Assembly: GCA_029261795.1 (NCBI GenBank) | Contig: JAJDAP010000033.1 | Span: 1-64,000, forward strand | DNA from: Deltaproteobacteria bacterium | GTDB lineage: Bacteria; Myxococcota_A; UBA9160; UBA6930 | DNA: 64,000 bases | Direction of reading: 5' to 3' | Shown: piece after piece, positions 57,453 to 64,000 of the stretch | Position numbering within the stretch: position 1 is the first letter of the stretch | Layout: each line of letters starts with the position of its first letter | Translations under genes and position numbers: made by a program | Notes under the pieces: model-generated | What the model was told of the DNA's origin: nothing | Databases searched by the model: none | What the model saw: the letters and a program-made list of their open reading frames with translations, nothing else

Positions 57453-57863
57453 ATGACCATCGGGAAGATCTGGCCCTCGAAAATCGGGGCGATCGCCCTG
57501 GCATTGCTGCTCGGAATCATGGCGACGGCGGCCAGCGCCGCGGACGATCCCTCGATCAAGGGAGACCTGCGAACCAACGTCCATGGGGCGATGGACCAGT
57601 TCGTGGCCGACAACACGGTAGATGGCGTGCTGCGCCTCTACGACGCAGTCGACGGCAAGCTGCTCAGCCTCCGCTCTTATGAGCTGCACAGCGGCATCGT
57701 CAAGAAGGGCGATTTCTACGTGAGCTGTGCGGATTTCGTGGACCAGGAAGGACGCAAGATCGACGTCGATTTCCTGGTGCTGCCGAAGGACGGCAAGCTC
57801 CAGACCAGCCAGGGGATCGTGCACTCCATCGAGGGTGAGAAGCGCAAGTACCACCTCGAATAG
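57453..57863 (+). CDS. Small secreted protein
   Basis: This 136-residue protein has a clear signal peptide (IGAIALALLLGIMATAASA) and a mature part of about 105 residues with a likely alpha/beta fold (VLRLYDAVDGKLLSLRSYELHSGIVKKGDFYVSCADFVD). One Cys remains in the mature chain. I recognise no family. AAGGAG precedes the ATG. It ends 17 bp before the ECF sigma gene and may be cotranscribed with it. Confidence 0.75.
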   Translation: MTIGKIWPSKIGAIALALLLGIMATAASAADDPSIKGDLRTNVHGAMDQFVADNTVDGVLRLYDAVDGKLLSLRSYELHSGIVKKGDFYVSCADFVDQEGRKIDVDFLVLPKDGKLQTSQGIVHSIEGEKRKYHLE

Positions 57864-57880
57864 GGAGCCCTGGAGCGCGA

Positions 57881-58426
57881 GTGAAGAAGCGATCCATGCA
57901 ATTGCGCGCCCGATCCGGCGAGAGCGAGAAGGCCCGGGACGAAGATCTCGATGAGCTGTTTCAGCGAGGTTTTCGCTACGCCCTGGCACTCAGCCACGAT
58001 CCGGATCGGGCGGCGGACCTGCTCCAGGACGCCTGCGTCTCGTGCCTGCGCGCGGGCGCAGCGTGGCGCACCGGGTACCTGTTCTCGGCGATTCGCAGCC
58101 GCTTCGTCGATCAGTACCGAAGACAGATGATCTCCGTGGTCGAGCCGATCGGTGACCCGGGCGCCCTGGAGCGGGCCGGAGCAGCCGAGGATCCGACACA
58201 CGACGAGCTTTTCCGGGCCGATCTCGATCACCTCGATCGCGCCCTCGGAGGCCTCCGAGCTGACGAGCGCGAGGCACTCTATTTGAGCGCCGTCGAGGGA
58301 TACAGCGCCCGGGAGATCGCGGAAGCGACTGGACGTCCCCGGGGCACGGTCCTGAGCGTCATCCACCGCGCCCGGCGCAAGCTTCGCGATCGGCTCCGTG
58401 ATTCGGGCATCGAGGAGACCCTATGA
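57881..58426 (+). CDS. ECF-type RNA polymerase sigma factor
   Basis: This 181-residue sigma factor has a region 2 (FQRGFRYALALSHDPDRAADLLQDACV; FSAIRSRFVDQYRR) and a region 4 with helix-turn-helix (LSAVEGYSAREIAEATGRPRGTVLSVIHRARRKLRDRL). The length and absence of region 3 define an extracytoplasmic-function factor. The start is a GTG. The next gene overlaps its stop (ATGA) and encodes a membrane protein likely to be its anti-sigma factor. Neighbouring copper-protein genes may be in its regulon. Confidence 0.9.
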   Translation: MKKRSMQLRARSGESEKARDEDLDELFQRGFRYALALSHDPDRAADLLQDACVSCLRAGAAWRTGYLFSAIRSRFVDQYRRQMISVVEPIGDPGALERAGAAEDPTHDELFRADLDHLDRALGGLRADEREALYLSAVEGYSAREIAEATGRPRGTVLSVIHRARRKLRDRLRDSGIEETL

Positions 58427-59055
58427 GTAGAGAACGTCTGGACGGTCACCTGCGCCGCTACTACGGCTCGCAGCAGCTCGACGCGACGACGCTCGAGCGC
58501 CTGAAGCAGCTCGCACAGGTCGAGACGCGAGCCGAAGTGCCGGAGTCATCGACGCACGGCTCCCAAGGGCGACGCCGCTTCGCTTCCCGCTTGCTGGGCG
58601 CAACGACCGCAGTCGCGGCCCTGGTGCTGCTGACGTTCGTCTTGCCCGCCCTTCGCAGCGACCCGGTCGCCCGCCCCGAAGCGCTAGCGGGCTCCATCGC
58701 GCGCGAGATCGCGCTCAACCACGTCAAGAACCTGACGGTCGAGTTCCCCGCCGAGGGCTACCCGGGGCTCCGTGAACAGATGGGCAAGCTCGACTTCTCG
58801 CTCCGTTCGCCGGAACACACCGGCGGCGGCGGCGCCTTCCGGGTGATCGGGGGGCGCTACTGCTCGATCCAGGGCCAGTTGGCCGCACAGATCAAGCTCG
58901 AGGACGGGGCGGGCCGGCTGCTGACGCTCTACCAGACCGACTTCAGCGAAGATTTCGAGGGGCTTTCCATGCAGCAGCGCGAACTCGAGGGAATCCAGAT
59001 CCGGATCTGGCGCGAGGGCGACCTGCTCTTCGGACTCGCCGCCTCGGAGATCTGA
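58423..59055 (+). CDS. Putative anti-sigma factor
   Basis: This 210-residue protein has a cytoplasmic N-terminus (about 55 residues, helix-forming), one membrane helix (LLGATTAVAALVLLTFVLPAL, about 60-80) and an outer domain of about 125 residues with NHVKNLTVEFPAEGYPGLREQMGKLDFSL. Overlap with the ECF sigma gene and this topology fit an anti-sigma factor, although no ZAS zinc motif is seen. The outer domain would sense an unknown signal; the adjacent copper proteins make a metal or oxidation signal possible. Confidence 0.7.
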   Translation: MSRERLDGHLRRYYGSQQLDATTLERLKQLAQVETRAEVPESSTHGSQGRRRFASRLLGATTAVAALVLLTFVLPALRSDPVARPEALAGSIAREIALNHVKNLTVEFPAEGYPGLREQMGKLDFSLRSPEHTGGGGAFRVIGGRYCSIQGQLAAQIKLEDGAGRLLTLYQTDFSEDFEGLSMQQRELEGIQIRIWREGDLLFGLAASEI

Positions 59056-59243
59056 GCCAGTCTGCGCTCAGATCCGCGGGCACCTGCCAGCGAGCACGCC
59101 CCGTAGCCCTCGGCATCGAACGACCTTCGGGGTTTGAGCCGAGACGGATCGGTCGCTGCTAGTTCGGAGCGTTCGGGATGCTCGATCGTTTCTTCGGACT
59201 CGGCCCGAAAGGATCTCGCCGCCCATGCTGAACTCGGGCGAGG

Positions 59244-59279
59244 TCGGGACGCCGACCAACCGTTCGATCGGCGTCCCGA
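59244..59279. repeat. Perfect 12-bp inverted repeat (hairpin)
   Basis: TCGGGACGCCGA and TCGGCGTCCCGA form a perfect 12-bp stem with a 12-nt loop. No T-run follows. It could be a structured RNA element, a factor-dependent terminator or a protein-binding dyad. Confidence 0.75.
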
Positions 59280-59282
59280 TAG

Positions 59283-59324
59283 GTGGGGCTCGTGGCCCGT
59301 CGCGCCCGAGGCAAAGAGCCCCAC
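59283..59324. repeat. Second hairpin, 9-bp stem
   Basis: GTGGGGCTC and GAGCCCCAC form a 9-bp stem with a 24-nt loop, immediately after the first hairpin. Together they suggest a structured stretch downstream of the sigma/anti-sigma genes. Confidence 0.6.
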
Positions 59325-59798
59325 TCGCATGCGCGACGTGTAGAAGAATCCCTCAGATCCGGTGGTCTGGTTCGCTTGCGAAGCGGCGGGAGCTTCGAGG
59401 CGCGACACATTCCGCGCTTCCCGCTGCGCCCGAAGAGGCGTCTCGCGCCGTGATTGCGCCGAAATCCATCCGCGCAATCGCGGCGGCGCCGAAACCAGCG
59501 GATTCAATCGATGTTGGTCTGCGGTTTGCATCGACCCCTTTCAGCTGGCCCGAGTGGGCCTGCGAAAAGGAGCGCTTCGCTTGGTCCCGGTCAGAACCTT
59601 CGTGGATGAGATCGAGGACACGTGCGACGGGCCAGGAGCGTGGCGTAACGGCACATCGAGCCAGCCCGGAACCTCCAGGACCAACGCGACGCCGGTTTGT
59701 CGTCGTCTCCTTCCGAGCAGGAAGGGCGATCGATGAGTTCGCCGCTGCTGCGCCGCCCTTGTTTCGATGTCACACCCCCGACCACTGGGAGAACGAGA

Positions 59799-60662
59799 AT
59801 GTCGACCATGCGAGCCACCACGACGGTTGCACTCTGCGCGATCGCGATGTTAGTCGCGCAGGCCGCCGCCGCCTACGACGTCGTGCCCGTCACGGATGGA
59901 GGCAAGATCTCGGGAACGATCTCGGTCGTTGGTGACATCCCCTCGCTCCGGCGCTTCAAGGTCGAGAAGACCCCCGAAGTCTGTGGCACCGACGACCGGT
60001 TGGTGGCCGAGATCCGCGCCACGAACGGGAAGCTGGCGGATGTGGTGGTGCACCTCGAAGAAGTGGACGCCGGCAAGCCCTACCCGAAGGAAGAGGCCCA
60101 GGGCGGCCCTCCTGAGACCGCCTTCCACTCACAGGTAGCCGGGGGCAATGGCGAGTTTCCGGGAACCACCATCAAGCCCAAGAAGTGCATCTTCGGGCCC
60201 TACACCGGCGTGATCGCACAGGGCAAGATGCTGAACTTCCGGAACCAGGATCCGGTGAAGCACAGCCCGCACACCTACGCCTCCAGGGGTCGCGTGAAGA
60301 CGACCATGCACAACGAAGATCTCGAAGGCGAGGGCAAGCTCGATCTCGAGATCAAGTTCGAGAAGGATTCGACCAACGTCCTGAAGCTCGAGTGCGACCA
60401 GCACGAGCACATGCAGAACTGGTTCCGCAAGGTCGAGAACCCGTATTACGCGTTCTCCGGCGAAGATGGGACGTTCGAGATCGGCGAGGTTCCGCCGGGC
60501 ACCTACAAGCTGATTGCGTGGCACCCCAAGTTCAAGCGGGAGAAGACGCAGAAGGTGACCGTGTCCGAGAACGGAACCGTCGAAGCGAGCTTCGAATTCA
60601 AGTCGCGAGTCCGGAAGGTAGCCCCCGCACCGGTCGCCGCGGGAACAGGAGCAGGTGAATGA
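59799..60662 (+). CDS. Exported cupredoxin-like protein with carboxypeptidase-regulatory-like domain
   Basis: This 287-residue protein has a signal peptide (VALCAIAMLVAQAAAA). A cupredoxin-like core has candidate copper ligands His155/His158 (KHSPHTY), Cys199, His202 and Met205 (ECDQHEHMQNW). A C-terminal CarboxypepD_reg-like domain follows (DGTFEIGEVPPGTYKLIAWH). The mature end is Ala/Pro-rich. It probably binds type 1 copper and passes electrons or delivers copper. GGGAG precedes ATG 59799. Its stop overlaps the start of the multicopper oxidase (ATGA), linking the two. Confidence 0.8.
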   Translation: MSTMRATTTVALCAIAMLVAQAAAAYDVVPVTDGGKISGTISVVGDIPSLRRFKVEKTPEVCGTDDRLVAEIRATNGKLADVVVHLEEVDAGKPYPKEEAQGGPPETAFHSQVAGGNGEFPGTTIKPKKCIFGPYTGVIAQGKMLNFRNQDPVKHSPHTYASRGRVKTTMHNEDLEGEGKLDLEIKFEKDSTNVLKLECDQHEHMQNWFRKVENPYYAFSGEDGTFEIGEVPPGTYKLIAWHPKFKREKTQKVTVSENGTVEASFEFKSRVRKVAPAPVAAGTGAGE

Positions 60663-63600
60663 GCGCAGCGGCTCATTGCGCTCCCGGGGCGCTCGCTCGC
60701 CTTGTGCTTGCCCTCGCTCTCGCTGGCGGCCTTGTCGTCAGCGGCAGCGCGGCATATGGCCATGGCGAGGAGAGAACCAAGGAAGCCGAGGACGCGAGCC
60801 AGAGCATCTACTCGGGAGCGGCTGGGATTCCTGCCGCGATCAACCTGGGCTTGACGGGAAGAAAGGGGAGCATCGATCCGAGCCTGGCGGCTCGCCACCT
60901 GATGGAAAAGCAGAAGGTTGCCCTGGAGGGCACCTACACCCAGTCCGGGAAACAACATTTCGGCGGCGACCTGCGTGAGGATGTTCGCCTGGTCCGAACC
61001 GCGACCGATTCGGTTCGCCGCGGCCACCGTTGCCCCGCCGATGTCACGAAGCGCGTCTTCGACGTGACCGCCATCAACGTCGACATCACGCTCAACCAGT
61101 ACCACGACTTCTACCCCGGCTACATGTACGTGCTGACGGAAAACATCGAGAAGGTGCGGGAAGAGGAGCAGCGCAACGAAGACGCGCGTTACGAGCTGAA
61201 CGATCCCGGCGCCGTCACCAATGGCCTCTCGGGCGACATCATCCAGCCGCTCGCGATCCGCGTGAACCAGGGCGAATGCCTGGTGGTGAACCTTTCCAAC
61301 GAGGTGGAGGACGAAGACGTCAGCTTCCACCTGCACGGCTCCAGTCTCGTCGTGGCCGCGACGGGAGAACCGGCGAGCGCGGTGAACCCCGACACGAACG
61401 TCGCACCGGGCGAGAGCCAGGCATTCGAGTGGCACGTCGCGTACAGCCAGCAGGAGGGCGTCCACCAGGTTCACAGCCACAACCACACACAGGCCGCCAC
61501 GGGAATGTTCGGAACCGTGACCGTCGAGCCGGAAGGGTCGCGCTACCTGAGCCCCTACACGGGAGAGCCGATCAAGAGTGGCTGGCTGGCCATGATCGAA
61601 GACCCCAATGGCCCGGACTTCCGCGAGTTCGTGGTCGTCTATCACGAGACCGGCGATGGCGAGATGCGCCCGCTCAACATCGACGAAGAGATGATCTCCC
61701 AGCGCGATCCGACTGCGCACAACTACCTCTCCGCTGGAAAGGCGCTGAACTACCGGAGTGAGCCCTTCGGAAACGGTCTCCGAAAGGAGGAAGAACTCTT
61801 CGGTCTGATGGACGAGTCGCAGTCCTACAGCTCCTATCACAACGGCGATCCCTCGACTCCGATTCCGCGTTCCTATCTCGGCGACCCGGCCAAGTGGCGG
61901 CTCGTCCACGGCGGTACGGAGGTCTTCCATTCCCACCACCTGCACGGTGGCGCGATCCGCTGGCGCCGGCAGTCCGAACTCGAGCAGGAGCTCGACCTGT
62001 TCGGGTCCGCCAACGAAAACCTGGCCACGAACGGGCCGATCAAGTATCCCCCGATCCAGGTCGCCTCGAACCGGGTCGACGTGCAATCGCTGGGTCCGGC
62101 AGAGACCCACGATCTGGTGATCGAGTGTGGCTCGGGCGGTTGTCAGCGGACGGCGGGCGACTTCCTGTATCACTGCCACGTCGTCCACCACTACGTGGCA
62201 GGGATGTGGTCCTTCTGGCGCACCTACAACACGCTGCAGGTCGACGGCGCGAGGACCGACACGATGCCCGCGCTGGCCGAGCTGCCCGATCGACACGGCG
62301 GGATGCTCGCGGCCGTGGATTCGACCCAGCTGGTGGGGAAGACCGTCGAGTGGTTCGGGAAGGAGTTCGAGATTGCCGACCTCGACGCCAGTACCGACCT
62401 CGAGAAGAACGTCTTCTCCCTGACGGACTGGGTCGAGATGCAGTTGCCGCCGAAGGGGCTGCCCGGAAAGAAGCAGGACTGGAAGGAACAGATCCTCGCC
62501 TATGACTCGAGCGTCTGGAACTGGGATCGGAAAGGCGCGCTCTATCTGGGCGAACCGGAAACGATGGTCCAATGGGCGAAGTACAAGCCTGCCTGGATGG
62601 GCAACGAGCCCGGCGACCGGCCCGCGTTGCTATTCGACCCGGCAACGGGCAAGCGCGCATTCCCGGGAATGCGGCCCCACTTCGGCAAGCGCCCACCGTT
62701 CAGTCCGGACAAGAACCCGGCGCCATTCCTCGAGCCGATCCACCGCCAGGCGAACGGTGCCAACAGCGCCAACGTCGCTCGCCCCGGGGAGAACGGGCCG
62801 TGGAGCCTGTGTCCACGGGAGGCCGACTCAACGAGCCAGCGTAAGCAGTTCAACATCCACGCGATCGCTACGCCGATCACCATGTCCGAGGCGAAGTGGG
62901 GGCAAGCGGCCATCACGGATCCGCAGGGCCAGCTCTACGTGCTTCACGAAGAGGAAGAGAGGATCCGCGCGAATAACGAGCTGAAGGTTCCGCTCGTCGT
63001 TCGCATGAACGTCCACGACTGCGCGGATGTGATTCTCACCAACGAGATTCCGGACGATCACGAGAACCTCTACTCCAGCAAAGTGAACATGCACATCCAC
63101 TTCGTGCAGTTCGACGTCCAGGCCTCGGACGGTGTGATCACGGGAATGAACTACGAACAGTCGGTCCGCCCGTTCACGATCCTCGAAGACGAAGGCAAGG
63201 GGATGGGCACCCCGCAGAACACCCTGACGAAATCCAGGGCGAAGGCCGGTGCCACCTCGATCAAGGTCGAGGACGCCAGCATCTACCAGGAGGGCGTCCA
63301 GGTCGGCGTCGGGATGGACGCCGTCGGACGTCTCGACATCCGGGAGATCGAGAAGATCAAGGGCAATACCCTGGTCTTCAGTGAGCCGCTCAGCCACGAA
63401 CACAAGAAGGGCGAGTTCGTCAGCACCGAGTTCGTACGCTACCGCTGGTATGCCGATTCGGATTTCGGAATCACCTACTGGCACGACCACGTCTATGGCC
63501 TGACCTCGTGGGGCCACGGCCTGTTCGGTTCGACGATCATCGAACCCAAGGGCTCCACCTATCACGACCCCGTCACCGGTCGGCCGGTTCGCAGCGGAAA

Positions 63601-64000
63601 TGTCGTCGACATCCACACGACCGAACCGGTCTCCTCCCAGGTGACCGGCAGCTTCCGCGAATTCGTGATGCAGATCCAGGACAGCAACCCCACCACCGAA
63701 ACCCAGGTGATCGCGGGTGCGGTGCCCAACAAGAAGCCCAGCCCGGAAGCCGAGCCGAACACCATCAACGCGCTCGGAAGCATGGATTCGTGGAGCCTGC
63801 CGCTGAATGCGTTCAGCTACCTGAACGGCGGCGATCGCACCTCGGGTGGCTCGATCGGGCTGCGAGTCGAGCCGCTGCATCGACGCCTGCGCGCCAACAG
63901 CGACGCGTCCGTCCTGTTCAGCAGCGTCGAACACGGCGATCCCGACACGCCCCTGGTGAACGCCTATCTCGGCGATCCCATCGTGATCCGCGCCCTGGCC
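60659..64000 (+). CDS. Very large multicopper oxidase, 3' end outside the window
   Basis: The frame is open from ATG 60659 to the window end (1114 codons, no stop). It has a signal peptide (LARLVLALALAGGLVVSGSAAYG). A full four-motif copper set lies in the first half: FHLHG (His224/226), VHSHNH, HSHHLHG and HCHVVHHYVAGM (from His505). A second, incomplete set lies further on: MHIHF (His812/814) and YWHDHVYG (His942/944). Size and multi-domain layout resemble MnxG-type Mn(II) oxidases and ceruloplasmin-like enzymes more than ~500-residue laccases. A copper, Mn or Fe oxidation role is inferred. The ATG overlaps the cupredoxin gene stop. Confidence 0.85.
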   Translation, partial: MSAAAHCAPGALARLVLALALAGGLVVSGSAAYGHGEERTKEAEDASQSIYSGAAGIPAAINLGLTGRKGSIDPSLAARHLMEKQKVALEGTYTQSGKQHFGGDLREDVRLVRTATDSVRRGHRCPADVTKRVFDVTAINVDITLNQYHDFYPGYMYVLTENIEKVREEEQRNEDARYELNDPGAVTNGLSGDIIQPLAIRVNQGECLVVNLSNEVEDEDVSFHLHGSSLVVAATGEPASAVNPDTNVAPGESQAFEWHVAYSQQEGVHQVHSHNHTQAATGMFGTVTVEPEGSRYLSPYTGEPIKSGWLAMIEDPNGPDFREFVVVYHETGDGEMRPLNIDEEMISQRDPTAHNYLSAGKALNYRSEPFGNGLRKEEELFGLMDESQSYSSYHNGDPSTPIPRSYLGDPAKWRLVHGGTEVFHSHHLHGGAIRWRRQSELEQELDLFGSANENLATNGPIKYPPIQVASNRVDVQSLGPAETHDLVIECGSGGCQRTAGDFLYHCHVVHHYVAGMWSFWRTYNTLQVDGARTDTMPALAELPDRHGGMLAAVDSTQLVGKTVEWFGKEFEIADLDASTDLEKNVFSLTDWVEMQLPPKGLPGKKQDWKEQILAYDSSVWNWDRKGALYLGEPETMVQWAKYKPAWMGNEPGDRPALLFDPATGKRAFPGMRPHFGKRPPFSPDKNPAPFLEPIHRQANGANSANVARPGENGPWSLCPREADSTSQRKQFNIHAIATPITMSEAKWGQAAITDPQGQLYVLHEEEERIRANNELKVPLVVRMNVHDCADVILTNEIPDDHENLYSSKVNMHIHFVQFDVQASDGVITGMNYEQSVRPFTILEDEGKGMGTPQNTLTKSRAKAGATSIKVEDASIYQEGVQVGVGMDAVGRLDIREIEKIKGNTLVFSEPLSHEHKKGEFVSTEFVRYRWYADSDFGITYWHDHVYGLTSWGHGLFGSTIIEPKGSTYHDPVTGRPVRSGNVVDIHTTEPVSSQVTGSFREFVMQIQDSNPTTETQVIAGAVPNKKPSPEAEPNTINALGSMDSWSLPLNAFSYLNGGDRTSGGSIGLRVEPLHRRLRANSDASVLFSSVEHGDPDTPLVNAYLGDPIVIRALA

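Follow-up and report, generated by a model that had tools for sequence, protein, structure and literature searches.

Aerobic marine bacteria that carry idr genes reduce iodate at low oxygen, with iodate itself inducing the genes (PMC11445184). The presumed products of the iodate reductase Idr include reactive iodine and peroxide (PMC8692401). The gene order idrP-idrP-idrB-idrA (P-P-B-A) with its two peroxidase genes sets idr clusters apart from the aio loci of arsenite oxidase (PMC8692401, PMC10989891), and the genes around idrABP1P2 are poorly conserved (PMC8692401). SCO genes accompany IoxA, an iodide-oxidising multicopper oxidase (MCO; PMC9415286). What IdrP1 and IdrP2 do, and which biological process supplies iodate to oxic sea water, has yet to be settled (PMC11445184, PMC12335899). 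Here we describe a locus in a genome of a Deltaproteobacteria bacterium (lineage Myxococcota_A; assembly GCA_029261795.1) where a giant MCO directly precedes an idr-type gene block. The window analysed is the stretch of bases 1-64000 of the 115,977-base contig JAJDAP010000033.1; positions above 64000 are coordinates on the same contig. We interpret the locus as an iodine-redox island made up of idrP-idrP-idrB-idrA, an exported cupredoxin and the giant MCO, the last with a candidate role in iodine oxidation, and we assign this interpretation a probability of roughly 55%.

A preliminary description of the window had reported a copper-protein module with a giant MCO, placed behind an extracytoplasmic function (ECF) sigma factor, its likely anti-sigma factor and a small secreted protein. 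All genes claimed for this module were found, and the gene set runs on past position 64000 as an iodate-reductase cluster that had been hidden by the window edge. Four forward-strand genes follow the MCO directly: (i) 65580-66704, coding for an IdrP2-like di-heme peroxidase; (ii) 66790-68010, coding for an IdrP1-like di-heme peroxidase; (iii) 68037-68588, coding for an IdrB-like Rieske protein exported by twin-arginine translocation (TAT), with RRRFLQAAG at its N-terminus; and (iv) 68639-71323, coding for an IdrA-like molybdenum (Mo) enzyme of 894 amino acids (aa). Leaders were judged by reading the N-termini. Both peroxidases carry a hydrophobic Sec-type leader and the IdrA-like enzyme has no signal peptide; together with the TAT leader of the IdrB-like protein this is the export pattern of iodate reductase, and the order P-P-B-A is the synteny trait of idrABP1P2. 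In a plasmid record of an Azonexus idr cluster, P-P-B-A is followed by a c-type cytochrome gene, as in the contig of the window.

Models of the NCBI collection label the Rieske and Mo subunits as arsenite oxidase, and the Mo enzyme scores above the cut-off for 'arsenate reductase (azurin)'. Automatic annotation would misname it, just as it would misname the MCO as 'manganese oxidase-like'. Compared with plasmid records, the Mo enzyme was 50-52% identical to three IdrA-type proteins and 25-30% identical to proteins mostly annotated as arsenite oxidase (AioA). An IdrA tree with 43 rows separated all six AioA sequences from the rest (support 100/100) and placed the window protein among the IdrA-type rows; as the experimentally confirmed IdrA proteins of strains SCT and IR-12 lie outside this tree, placement next to those two is indirect. 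The arsenite-site glutamate, identified with the help of the alignment as E203 of A. faecalis and E207 of NT-26, is conserved in 6/6 AioA rows; the remaining 93 rows have Asp, Ser or Ala at this position, with Asp in the window. On the tree, the identity gap and the replaced glutamate, an arsenite oxidase identity of the Mo enzyme was rejected. By family membership and synteny, the predicted Mo-Rieske-peroxidase block is an iodate reductase cluster of the idrABP1P2 type.

The giant MCO is encoded on the forward strand from 60659 to the window edge and on to contig position 65491. The preliminary description had given it more than 1114 residues; the gene traced past 64000 to its stop codes for an extracytoplasmic protein of 1610 aa with a Sec-type leader. 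The protein matched the Cu-oxidase_3 family (E 3.7e-19). Its best solved relative was the manganese oxidase MnxG (PDB 9bxa; E 5e-102 over seven stretches; a profile search was also run), and it reached 171 bits against the NCBI MnxG model (NF041487), for which the equivalog cut-off is 3100. A full ligand set lies on domains 2 and 3: H424-xx-H427-x-H429 and H505-C506-H507-xxx-H511-xxxx-M516 in domain 2 (HxxHxH and HCHxxxHxxxxM; 61928..62206, forward strand, aligned with MnxG residues ~280-345), and H812-x-H814 and H942-x-H944 in domain 3 (HIH and HDH; 63092..63490, forward strand). The type 1 (T1) copper ligands H424, H505-C506-H507, H511 and M516 align with those of MnxG, as do the two domain 3 HxH motifs, which hold type 2 (T2) and type 3 (T3) ligands. 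Opposite H511, the solved MnxG carries Ala at position 340; this structure is presumably the H340A mutant. The partial second set of copper motifs noted earlier corresponds to a pair in domain 1, H224-x-H226 and H272-x-H274 (61328..61480, forward strand), which is missing from the aligned MnxG. Seven homologues, drawn from four phyla, keep every listed His and Cys ligand of the three domains without exception. The MCO thus has the six-domain layout of MnxG, in which domains 2 and 3 hold the T1/T2/T3 ligands, and the trinuclear site, by analogy with MnxG and two-domain laccases, would lie at the domain 2/3 interface. The comparison with MnxG that had been suggested in the preliminary description therefore bore out the architecture; membership of the MnxG family proper was not borne out, the score being far under the cut-off. 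From its sequence the protein is a distant six-domain relative of MnxG that forms a subfamily of its own, with all canonical copper ligands and an extra conserved His-X-His pair.

The distribution of this subfamily, delimited by at least 60% identity, was surveyed in 1354 genomes (379 Myxococcota, 392 on the Planctomycetota side, 369 on the Gammaproteobacteria side and 214 on the Verrucomicrobiota side). The subfamily proved rare: six genomes carried it, and all six carried idr, three of them having been picked as survey centres because they bear idr. Only two results of the survey are free of this bias, namely the absence of idr-free carriers and the finding for the Myxococcota, whose three carriers, window genome included, were drawn regardless of idr (3/3 with idr). 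The window genome is counted with the Myxococcota through its kinship to G013. Other giant MCOs (1594-2215 aa, about 22-44% identical in local pieces) occur in Myxococcota and Planctomycetota, and no idr genes were found near them within the fetched stretches. Separately, idr-bearing Nitrospinae and NIOZ-UU50 metagenome-assembled genomes (MAGs; G386:C44/L146 and G387:C21/L147) have distant giant MCOs of 2200 aa on contigs other than those with idr.

In a comparison of 80 IdrA loci and their flanks, the MCO was located immediately before P-P-B-A in MAGs of Myxococcota (L023, same genome as G013), Gammaproteobacteria (L024), Verrucomicrobia (L029) and Pirellulales (L030). The C-terminal part of the MCO was found at a contig end in a Halieaceae MAG (L053), the full set in a genome of the same order as the window genome (G078, at L144), and a set split over two contigs in a Pirellulaceae genome (L145 and L027). 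The block cupredoxin-MCO-P-P-B-A is complete in L023, L024, L144 and L157 and partial, owing to contig ends, in L030/L156, L053 and L027/L145; whole or in part it occurs in Myxococcota, Gammaproteobacteria, Verrucomicrobiota and Planctomycetota. Identities within the group of the window were 78-85% for the MCO and 83-92% for IdrA, and between the two groups 60-61% and 59-63%, respectively. This parallel fall indicates that MCO and IdrA have travelled and diverged as a unit. The islands with the MCO fall into two IdrA subclades, and a single origin of the MCO-bearing idr clade was not rejected (approximately unbiased test, p 0.114). The G+C content of the island is 62-64%, against 66% in the surroundings.

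In three genomes, one of Verrucomicrobia (L029 2-6373) and two of Planctomycetota (L156, L145), the MCO is fused to an IdrP-like di-heme peroxidase. The fusion frames comprise 2057-2123 residues; between the MCO and the peroxidase that follows it lies a linker containing a hydrophobic, membrane-spanning stretch. As the two are fused in some lineages and adjacent in others, there is strong evidence in these gene structures that MCO and IdrP-like peroxidase would act together. A search of the literature in PMC (the search did not extend to subscription papers and preprints) gave no match for MnxG-like or giant MCOs linked with idr. Idr membership, MnxG-type copper ligands, and conserved linkage and fusion can be read directly from the genes, and they point to a horizontally spread, phylum-crossing idr variant of marine bacteria with a giant MCO, a coupling not found in the literature searched.

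We infer the substrate of the MCO, the direction of electron flow and the regulation of the island as follows. At low oxygen, IdrAB would draw electrons from periplasmic cytochromes and reduce iodate to hypoiodous acid (HOI) and iodide, with the di-heme IdrP proteins removing peroxide. The MCO, which quite probably takes part in the function of the Idr system, would serve as its periplasmic oxygen-using partner, oxidising iodide or HOI at the T1 copper and passing the electrons to O2 to form water; if active, the MCO must reduce O2. Electron transport would fall to the cupredoxin and cytochromes, copper supply to SCO and PCuAC proteins, and the ECF sigma factor would be a candidate regulator. 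Iodide or HOI is our first choice on three grounds, namely the genetic tie to idr, the joining of MCO and IdrP in one chain, and the example of IoxA with its SCO proteins; the assignment of an iodine species as substrate is nonetheless tentative, and the MCO is perhaps an iodide oxidase, i.e., an oxygen-using member of iodine redox metabolism. A variant of this scheme, which we consider improbable, turns the island into an oxygen-linked chain from iodide to iodate: the MCO would oxidise iodide to HOI with O2 and, via the high-potential cupredoxin, would take electrons from IdrAB working in reverse, so that HOI is converted to iodate. If true, marine iodide, whose re-oxidation is still unexplained, would have an enzymatic path of its own back to iodate. 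An idr variant with a giant O2-using MCO, even fused to IdrP, suggests that iodine metabolism includes a step linked to oxygen, and the MCO is a named protein on which such a step can be examined.

Several points weigh against a role of the MCO in iodine oxidation. Since the MCO is missing from most idr islands, it is dispensable for iodate reduction. Its function is predicted from sequence, and the AlphaFold2 (AF2) model of domains 1-4 was unusable (pLDDT 33). The nearest characterised relative, MnxG, oxidises Mn and not iodide, and IoxA, for which iodide oxidation is known, has only 62 kDa and is likened to the MCO here by description. Finally, aerobic marine bacteria show Idr activity mainly under oxygen limitation (PMC11445184), which is awkward for an O2-using partner. 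The same oxygen dependence, seen in washed cells of R. azorensis, where Idr works only at low oxygen (PMC11445184), would suit the main rival explanation, namely that the MCO is a periplasmic cupredoxin or cytochrome c oxidase which clears O2, much as the IdrP proteins clear H2O2, to protect IdrAB or to drain excess electrons, iodine not being its substrate. The overlap of the cupredoxin gene with the MCO start, the c-type cytochromes and di-heme peroxidases of the same island and the fusion to a peroxidase through a membrane-spanning linker are in line with O2 clearing. Yet the substrate of MnxG, the closest characterised relative, is a small inorganic ion, a haem-copper oxidase is already encoded in the genome and the majority of idr islands do without the MCO; we regard this explanation as unlikely.

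Less likely still is a role of the MCO as an MnxG-like oxidase of Mn(II) (or Fe) which merely travels with idr, or whose Mn oxides oxidise iodide indirectly. All T1/T2/T3 ligands of MnxG are kept and the solved MnxG is the best structural relative, but the score of 171 bits against a cut-off of 3100, the extra His pair of domain 1 and the tight linkage and fusion with Idr proteins argue otherwise; moreover, no MnxE- or MnxF-like gene was recognised among the neighbours of the MCO, although no query with MnxE or MnxF was made. Extracellular oxidation of Mn, Fe or Cu, the function put forward in the preliminary description, was rejected as the principal interpretation on the basis of membership in the idr block, co-inheritance, fusion to the IdrP-like peroxidase and the MnxG score. 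An arsenite oxidase (AioBA) function of the Mo-Rieske pair, with the island oxidising arsenic by means of O2, as the NCBI label above cut-off would have it, is very improbable in view of the separate clade (100/100), the identity of only 27-30% to AioA, the Asp in place of the arsenite-site Glu and the presence of two IdrP genes, which aio loci do not have (PMC8692401). Chance neighbourhood of a copper-resistance type MCO and an unrelated respiratory cluster is hardly conceivable: the functional link between MCO and idr is drawn from sequence, but the same block in four phyla, the parallel divergence and the gene fusion already contradict it. We therefore retain the iodine-redox island as the preferred interpretation.

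The cupredoxin-like gene (59799..60662, forward strand) overlaps the MCO start by 4 bp, as had been described. It codes for an exported protein with the ligand set H...C-x2-H-x2-M and a C-terminal CarboxypepD_reg domain (PF13620). Residues H131, H134, C175, H178 and M181 are invariant in an alignment with distant homologues, and the AF2 model (pLDDT 71) gave weak fold matches to purple cupredoxin, amicyanin and small cupredoxins. Homologues are present in many idr islands. L060, L086 (15.0-19.6 kb) and further idr loci of Alphaproteobacteria have a homologue (~30%) of the cupredoxin-CarboxypepD_reg protein ~2.5 kb downstream of idrA, beside apparent universal-stress and radical-SAM genes, which makes it a recurrent idr neighbour.

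Directly after the IdrA-like gene, as on the Azonexus plasmid, lies a gene for a c-type cytochrome (71429-71758, forward strand). The same strand carries further genes as far as ~78342: besides c-type cytochromes they encode a third di-heme peroxidase, an isomerase of the FKBP type, the copper chaperone PCuAC, two proteins of the SCO1/SenC family and a plastocyanin-like protein; these accessory genes are largely conserved in L023 and partly in L024. Next to them (contig C33 78347-79975; L012 3347-4975) a 542-aa membrane protein without family match is encoded that has a Cys-rich cluster (CRSCSAERCQRGEDCVGCNEC) and is conserved in the L023 and L024 islands. A distant homologue stands beside a second Mo cluster, 37 kb downstream of idrA, where a Nap/Fdh-like molybdenum oxidoreductase with an RR-type leader (contig C33 108666-111422; L013 13666-16422) has c-type cytochrome and cytochrome b genes nearby; the nearest models scored well under cut-off. 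The host genome encodes a haem-copper oxidase and RuBisCO was not detected in it, so the organism is probably an aerobic heterotroph.

Upstream of the copper genes, the three genes of the predicted regulatory set were confirmed on the forward strand: (i) 57453..57863, a small secreted protein of 136 aa without Pfam match; (ii) 57881..58426, an ECF sigma factor (PF08281; TIGR02937, E 2.7e-18); and (iii) 58423..59055, a likely membrane anti-sigma factor with one hydrophobic segment, for which the Pfam scan gave no family match and whose gene overlaps that of the sigma factor by 4 bp (ATGA). The link of this set to the MCO drawn in the preliminary description held in 3/3 MCO-bearing Myxococcota genomes (window, G078 and G013), in which the two adjoin. 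Homologues beside the same island in G078 and G013 were 72% and 66% identical for the sigma factor, 55% and 60% for the anti-sigma factor, and 68% and 74-80% for the secreted protein. In the window and in G078 the set points the same way as the island, in G013 it is divergent, and it was not found upstream of the gammaproteobacterial MCO-idr copy. The secreted-protein family occurs in 5/5 sampled idr-bearing genomes of the order (G000, G012, G013, G042, G078) and otherwise in only four genomes of the order (G001, G005, G011, G071); as these four are without IdrA, the family is not idr-specific. In the alignment of the window with G078, no clear conserved -35/-10 elements of a common promoter were seen upstream of 57453 and 59799. 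The ECF sigma factor is a candidate regulator of the island, a link that is suggestive only because the set was not found at the gammaproteobacterial copy and the secreted-protein family is present in relatives without IdrA.

Among described systems, AioBA resembles the Mo-Rieske pair of the island in having a Mo-bisPGD/[3Fe-4S] large subunit and a TAT-exported Rieske small subunit; it differs in that AioA forms a separate clade and keeps the arsenite-site Glu and that the two peroxidases are absent. IoxA and IoxC of Iodidimonas and Roseovarius are, like the giant MCO, exported MCOs in iodine metabolism with SCO1/SenC in the cluster (PMC9415286); they are set apart by description, with 62 kDa for IoxA, 71 kDa for IoxC and no Idr genes described in their cluster (PMC9415286). 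With idrABP1P2 of Pseudomonas sp. SCT, Denitromonas sp. IR-12, Azoarcus sp. DN11 and Roseovarius azorensis, the island has in common the order P-P-B-A, an IdrB of TAT type, an IdrA without signal peptide, Sec-type IdrP leaders and an IdrA-type sequence, whereas the preceding cupredoxin and giant MCO are not mentioned in the published accounts consulted. MnxG (PDB 9bxa; NF041487), finally, shares with the MCO the six domains and the T1/T2/T3 ligands on domains 2 and 3. In contrast to MnxG, from which it is distant, the MCO is longer, has an extra conserved HxH pair in domain 1, is linked to idr and, in some phyla, is fused to a di-heme peroxidase.

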